A DNA stretch of 40,579 nt, from the NCBI GenBank assembly GCA_019347905.1, contig JAHWKJ010000002.1:1-40579 (forward strand), in the 5' to 3' direction. How positions within the stretch are numbered: position 1 is the first letter of the stretch; every line of letters begins with the position of its first letter. The notes under the pieces are model-generated. The model made no database searches, was not told where the DNA came from, and saw nothing but the letters and a program-made list of their open reading frames with translations. The DNA is from Planctomycetota bacterium (GTDB lineage Bacteria; Planctomycetota; Planctomycetia; Planctomycetales; Planctomycetaceae). This document shows, in pieces, positions 1,121 to 8,889 of the stretch. The translations under genes were made by a program, and so were the position numbers.

Positions 1121-1492
1121 GCGCGTTTAGCCGCAATACCGTTCAATTAGTCCGAAGTCGCAGAGCCAGTTGGGGTTGGGTGGCACTGGCAGCTTGCCTG
1201 CCAGTGTCGAGTGTTTCTCACGCGAACAGCACGTCACGGAGCTTTCGAACACGTCAGGACGGCTCGCACGGGATGGCGAGCATCCCGTGGCACCCAAAAC
1301 CACGGCGAGTCCACGAGTTACAGCTAATTGAACGGTATTGCGTTTAGCCGCGACTCGCCAGAGGAGCGCTCGTCTGGAACGGGGTCAGACCCCTTTGCGG
1401 CCGAGCGATGGCGAATACGGAAGGCCCGGTGAGCCGCAAAGGGGTCTGACCCTTCGATGCAGCGCTCCTCTGTCGAGTCGCGGCTCAACGCC
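1121..1492. repeat. Composite nested palindromic repeat (family R1 arms, family R3 core, MITE in left arm)
   Basis: The outer arms are CGTTTAGCC...GCGACTCGCCAGAGGAGCGCT on the left (split by the MITE, ending at 1370) and AGCGCTCCTCTGTCGAGTCG followed by CGGCT on the right (1461-1490). Inside is a second inverted pair, GGGGTCAGACCCCTTTGCGG (1381-1400) and its complement (1434-1452). Both families recur elsewhere in the window (R1 at 8807, 17321, 21083 and 33858; R3 at 4611). Apart from these repeats I see no gene between 987 and 1528. Confidence 0.85.
1133..1341. mobile_element. 209-bp MITE-like element with 18-bp perfect inverted ends and 8-bp target duplication
   Basis: The left end GCAATACCGTTCAATTAG (1133-1150) is the exact reverse complement of the right end CTAATTGAACGGTATTGC (1324-1341). 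GTTTAGCC directly abuts both ends (1125-1132 and 1342-1349), which is the expected footprint of an 8-bp target-site duplication. Removing the element and one copy restores the uninterrupted R1 repeat sequence CGTTTAGCCGCGACTCG. No transposase fits in 209 bp, so it would move in trans. Inside are smaller inverted pairs, including GGGTGGCAC with GTGGCACCC. The IS family that mobilises it cannot be named from the sequence alone. Confidence 0.85.
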
Positions 1493-8806: not shown

Positions 8807-8858
8807 CGTTTAGCCGCGGCCCAACGGGCCGCGCGGCCCGTTGGGCCGCGGCTAAACG
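8807..8858. repeat. Perfect 52-bp palindrome (family R1), possible bidirectional terminator
   Basis: The sequence from CGTTTAGCCGCGGCCCAACG to CGTTGGGCCGCGGCTAAACG is its own reverse complement over 52 bp, centred between 8832 and 8833. A further half copy (GAGTCGCGGCTAAACG) follows at 8865-8880. It lies between two convergent genes, where a terminator would be useful; other members of the family lie in codirectional and divergent gaps, so termination cannot be its only role. Confidence 0.9.
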
Positions 8859-8889
8859 GCTGGCGAGTCGCGGCTAAACGGGAACGACT

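Follow-up and report, generated by a model that had tools for sequence, protein, structure and literature searches.

A MITE with IS4-subgroup ends in the foot of a REPIN-like repeat of a planctomycete genome

The window, a stretch of 40,579 nucleotides, contains a repeat-rich locus between two divergent genes, one for a VKOR/SPW membrane protein and the other yjbQ. A search for an orthologous empty site, in a set of genomes that included none of the same genus, yielded none: in the nearest genome match, G036, the gene order is different and only the upstream gene matches at this place. The locus consists of a MITE and a REPIN, R1, each with a further repeat inside it (Table 1). The sequence GTTTAGCC borders the MITE on both sides in direct orientation, and positions 1133-1150 and 1324-1341 are inverted ends without a mismatch, for which 100 shuffles gave a chance expectation of 0. 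The repeat nested within R1, REP3, has copies elsewhere on contigs C260, C246 and C580.

Table 1. Features of the locus, and complete elements from the comparison set as examples of the 10-bp duplication
Feature	Position	Strand	Length	Sequence or remark
MITE	1134..1340	.	207 bp	non-coding, IS4-subgroup ends
Left TIR	1134..1150	+	17 bp	CAATACCGTTCAATTAG
Right TIR	1324..1340	-		
Target duplication, left copy	1124..1133	+	10 bp	CGTTTAGCCG, foot of R1
Target duplication, right copy	1341..1350	+	10 bp	R1's first ten bases
REPIN-2 body	1178..1295	.		GGGTGGCAC...GTGGCACCC; two inverted hairpins, 1184-1206 and 1267-1289
R1 REPIN, MITE target	1341..1490	.		GTTTAGCC-foot family; right foot decayed (CGGCTCAACG)
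REP3	1381..1452	.		inverted pair GGGGTCAGACCCCTTTGCGG...CCGCAAAGGGGTCTGACCC nested in R1 loop; window sequence
L056			1389 bp	CCCTTAACCC
L081			1451 bp	CAGTTAGTCC
L080			114 bp	CGCCAAAGCC
L053			272 bp	CGCCTAAACA
L169			113 bp	GGCTTACGCC
L172			194 bp	CGTTTAACCG

Where exactly does the element end? The sequence-only reading described an element of 209 bp at 1133-1341 with exact 18-bp ends and an 8-bp target duplication. The element, its perfect inverted repeat and the direct duplication all hold, and each length requires correction. We compared 12 complete elements, from this and other genomes, that have the same TIRs and both flanks. The direct duplication is exactly 10 bp in ten of them (eight perfect, two with one mismatch), while lengths of 5-9 and 11-14 give background scores among complete elements with these TIRs; the remaining two, C77 and C681 of the own genome, are without a direct duplication. 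In L056 and L080 the base preceding the CAATACC of the TIR is C rather than G, and the TIR is therefore 17 bp long and starts with C. The 18/8 division arose because the duplication has C as its first base and G as its last, such that one base on each side mimics the TIR. Inclusion of GTTTAGCC in a longer TIR was ruled out by the copies in other genomes. A scan of species genomes found the 18-mer of the sequence-only reading in planctomycete MAGs, Actinobacteria and a few others, and near-identical ends occur in seven other genomes of the same planctomycete family and also in other phyla.

The element is multicopy. A search for further copies of its ends, as the sequence-only reading had advised, found about 17 MITE insertion loci in the own genome, a count that leaves out two weak matches with 3 mismatches (C139 and C718). 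These and the other own-genome counts derive from searches and from a 249-kb sample. The window copy (C317), C681 and C675 show 3-4 differences over 207 bases, whereas C77 has 17 differences and C415 has 30; the small and large divergences therefore point to younger and older rounds of insertion. The flanking 10-mer is within 2 mismatches of CGTTTAGCCG at 15 of the 17 loci and exact at 12 of them; C283 and C630 are without the foot. In the 249-kb sample, 0.008% of positions are exact foot sites. Being short, non-coding and multicopy, with IS4-subgroup ends, the element was correctly read as a MITE.

Every own-genome MITE end that reaches far enough runs into the REPIN-2 body. This body is a pair of GGGTGG plus hairpin and GGGTGC plus hairpin, with a z of about -2.5 to -3.2 for each hairpin. 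It also occurs on its own at more than 30 further sites in the genome, often inside the loop of R1-type pairs, and a segment of about 31 bp in one arm has matches of 91-100% in other genera of the family. At about 11236-11450 of C94 (L123), a chimera joins a GCGGCCC-type REP arm and a REPIN-2 core; the right end of the MITE comes next, and then an entire REPIN.

What kind of element supplied these ends? The sequence-only reading left the parent transposase unnamed and would have failed if no other copy or parent IS with these ends existed, or if relatives showed the 209 bp as ancestral single-copy sequence. Neither came about: besides the own-genome loci, full-length copies with the same termini were found in other genomes, and they encode IS4-family transposases. 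In the 1.4-kb elements with these TIRs, a single long reading frame encodes a transposase that combines Nterm_IS4 with DDE_Tnp_1 and matches the NCBIfam IS4 family at 250 bits. For example, the full IS L081 and L061 contain PF13006 and PF01609. The Y(2)R(3)E(6)K motif reads YAQRWEIETAFDELK in L081 and YHERWEQELAYDELK in L183. In two genomes of the same planctomycete family, G158 and G124 (loci L182 and L183), IS4-type transposases adjoin a TIR that is identical or almost identical to that of the window. IS copies in G070 and KLAP7 are truncated where their contigs stop, and their ends encode RINPRVIKRKMS..., which corresponds to the C-terminal end of the transposase in G158. For the IS4 subgroup, published values are ends of the form -AATR--------WTW----, a size of 1400-1650 bp and direct repeats of 10-13 bp (De Palmenaer et al. 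2008, PMC2266710). The left TIR agrees with this signature at every specified position, and the full IS measure 1389-1451 bp, L056 falling 11 bp below the published range. On these sequence characters, we identify the parent type of the window MITE as the IS4 subgroup of the IS4 family. The window element and its relatives resemble the subgroup in the end signature, in a 10-bp duplication that lies within the range, in the Nterm_IS4 and DDE domains and in the YREK motif; unlike the subgroup, the window element is non-coding, carries a REPIN-like pair and has no parent in the assembled genome. A PF13006 profile search, for which an E. coli control was positive, and tblastn, a protein search run with no positive control, found no IS4 transposase in the 6.18-Mb assembly, a MAG of 94% completeness whose contigs are interrupted at repeats.

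The target of the MITE belongs to a large family of inverted pairs. The sequence GTTTAGCC is the foot of this family, in which foot plus hairpin is followed by hairpin plus foot. The 249-kb sample contains 33 feet, mostly in inverted pairs 41-91 bp apart, corresponding to about 800 feet genome-wide. The arms are of the R1 (GCGACTCGCCAGAGGAGCGC), GCGTCCC and GCGGCCC types. R1 folds as one long hairpin (z -11.4); the hairpin of a single R1 arm is weak (z -0.3), and that of the GCGGCCC arm has a z of -2.7. R1 and its relatives are inverted pairs with many copies, as REPINs are, and they lie on either side of a RAYT gene linked to them (see below); the foot is GTTTA(A/G)C rather than the GTAG/GTGG of canonical REPs. 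A literature search with the foot sequence itself returned unrelated papers only. Elsewhere in the window, the GCGGCCC-type REPIN at 8807-8880 is joined to half of an R1 arm (CTGGCGAGTCGCGGCTAAAC), and the resulting mosaic resembles L154 and L013.

The linked gene, a Y1 transposase (RAYT) gene, lies on C482 (L036:265-915) between two GTTTAGCC REPINs. It matches PF01797 at 24.6 bits, above the cut-off of 23, and NF047646 at 42 bits, under the 80-bit cut-off. We tested 20 RAYT-like genes of the family, namely relatives from L184-L213 together with the own gene. GTTTA(A/G)C lies no more than 300 bp from 14 of them and flanks 12 on both sides, whereas the remainder of these loci gives an expectation of 0.015 per gene. 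In G036, for example, a RAYT relative is followed by an R1-type pair, and in G134 and G074 a RAYT relative is flanked by GTTTAACGGCAAGCCGCAGGCGAC, the REP into which the IS of KLAP7 has inserted. Another four Y1 transposase genes, on C318, C46, C260 and C246 (L136-L139), each lie near distinct short palindromes of their own, such as GTAGGTCCCGCCTGCCGGGCGGGACC at C246.

KLAP7 is a second planctomycete MAG, and all 13 ends of an IS4-type IS in it (loci L054-L085) fall within CGTTTAACGG, a REP foot, which in one case differs by one base. The REP hairpin lies outside the end in six and other DNA in seven, approximately the even split predicted for insertion into one foot. At L079 in KLAP7, an IS end is adjoined by a MITE of 113 bp that has a separate 10-bp duplication.

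Which came first at the window locus, the MITE or R1? When the element and one duplication are removed, the joined flanks restore an R1 repeat, as the sequence-only reading stated, with a left arm identical to the R1 consensus at 31 of 31 positions and a right arm with 3 mismatches in 31. Since the ten duplicated bases are the foot of R1 and the adjoining arm is intact, R1 was there first and the MITE came later, the relative age originally proposed. C77 and C681 differ from this arrangement: they read CGTTTAGCCG...CGGCTAAACG, with inverted feet. Apart from its right junction, C681 differs from the window copy by one base. At that junction, GGT is joined to GTCGCGGCTAAACG, so that the MITE runs into the inner portion of R1's distal arm, and GTCG, which precedes the foot in the R1 arm too, takes the place of the final MITE bases ahead of the distal foot. 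Judged from these sequences, the simplest account of C681 is deletion of most of R1 after the insertion, and a similar deletion probably explains C77. Excision of R1 by the RAYT is a possible source of inverted-foot copies, and plain deletion suffices for C681.

We propose that the element at 1134-1340 is a non-autonomous MITE of the IS4 subgroup that was inserted into the left foot of the R1 REPIN by a transposase acting in trans, and we hold this with high confidence. The sequences themselves establish the ends, the length of the duplication, the parent IS family, the target and the order of insertion. The transposase would recognise the 17-bp TIRs and insert the element through a 10-bp staggered cut at TTAR-centred 10-mers. 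The RAYT-linked, REPIN-like foot CGTTTAGCCG would be a common site of this kind in the genome, and its abundance would therefore account for the presence of nearly all MITE copies in REPIN feet. In the window, the MITE would have landed in the left foot of R1 and duplicated it, carrying a second REPIN-like pair as its body. We infer cut-and-paste chemistry and mobilisation in trans, with the source transposase either lost or located in an unassembled repeat. Against the proposal stand the inverted feet of C77 and C681 and the lack of an IS4 transposase gene in the assembled contigs.

The same locus can be read in the opposite order, with GTTTAGCC as part of the element (a TIR of 25-27 bp), the whole moved as a REPIN-type unit by the RAYT, and R1 inserted later at its right foot. 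The inverted CGTTTAGCCG at both ends of C77 and C681 fits such a unit, as does the observation that most own-genome TIR ends consist of CGTTTAGCCG directly followed by CAATACC and bordered externally by single-copy DNA. Assembly is poor, however, where repeats lie on either side, which in itself favours recovery of the single-copy form, and C681 retains a relic of an R1 arm. Moreover, in other genomes the elements with the same TIRs are bordered by different 10-mers, present as direct 10-bp duplications, C283 and C630 are without the foot, and two other copies match the window MITE almost exactly whereas R1 has decayed. We consider the reversed order quite unlikely.

The remaining alternatives are less probable still. 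An 18-bp inverted repeat and an 8-bp direct repeat can be drawn on the window copy when it is taken alone, as would suit a MITE of another DDE family, but the other copies fix the values at 17 and 10 and the IS with these ends encode IS4-family transposases, making this assignment very improbable. It is scarcely credible that the structure is a chance palindrome or an assembly artefact at a repeat: the assembly is fragmented and contig breaks are frequent at these repeats, but the window contig runs about 39 kb past the MITE, the shuffles yield none, and the same ends recur at the own-genome loci, with near-identical ones in the family and beyond it.

Targeting of REPs by the IS4 family is already known. 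All or nearly all insertions of ISRm22, an IS4-family element, are in REP sequences (Tobes and Pareja 2006, PMC1525189). The planctomycete elements are like ISRm22 and other REP-inserting IS in that an IS4-family element inserts in REPs. Unlike the case of ISRm22, the site here is the REP foot, a MITE shares the insertion sites, and the host, the REP family and the IS subgroup (IS4, not IS4Sa) differ. Likewise, the planctomycete repeats share with REPIN/RAYT systems (PMC3116915, PMC6006769) inverted pairs of foot and hairpin, many per genome, and a Y1 transposase gene flanked on both sides; their foot is GTTTA(A/G)C as opposed to GT(A/G)G, CGTC or CnGA. Known atypical REPs are likewise without GT(A/G)G (PMC6006769). 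In the searchable literature we found neither foot targeting by the IS4 subgroup nor a RAYT group with a GTTTARC foot.

Finally, these observations turn the window case from a local oddity into one member of a family with a named parent type and corrected ends, in which several repeat systems are stacked by age and cleanly ordered. We suggest only tentatively, and with more doubt than belief, that planctomycete IS4-subgroup elements and their MITEs use the RAYT-linked REP foot as a dedicated landing site, so that DDE and HUH transposases would share CGTTTARC and one element would spread on the back of the other. IS4 targets coincide with the feet of RAYT-linked REPs in two planctomycete genomes or more, which suggests a role for these feet as abundant and probably harmless landing sites.
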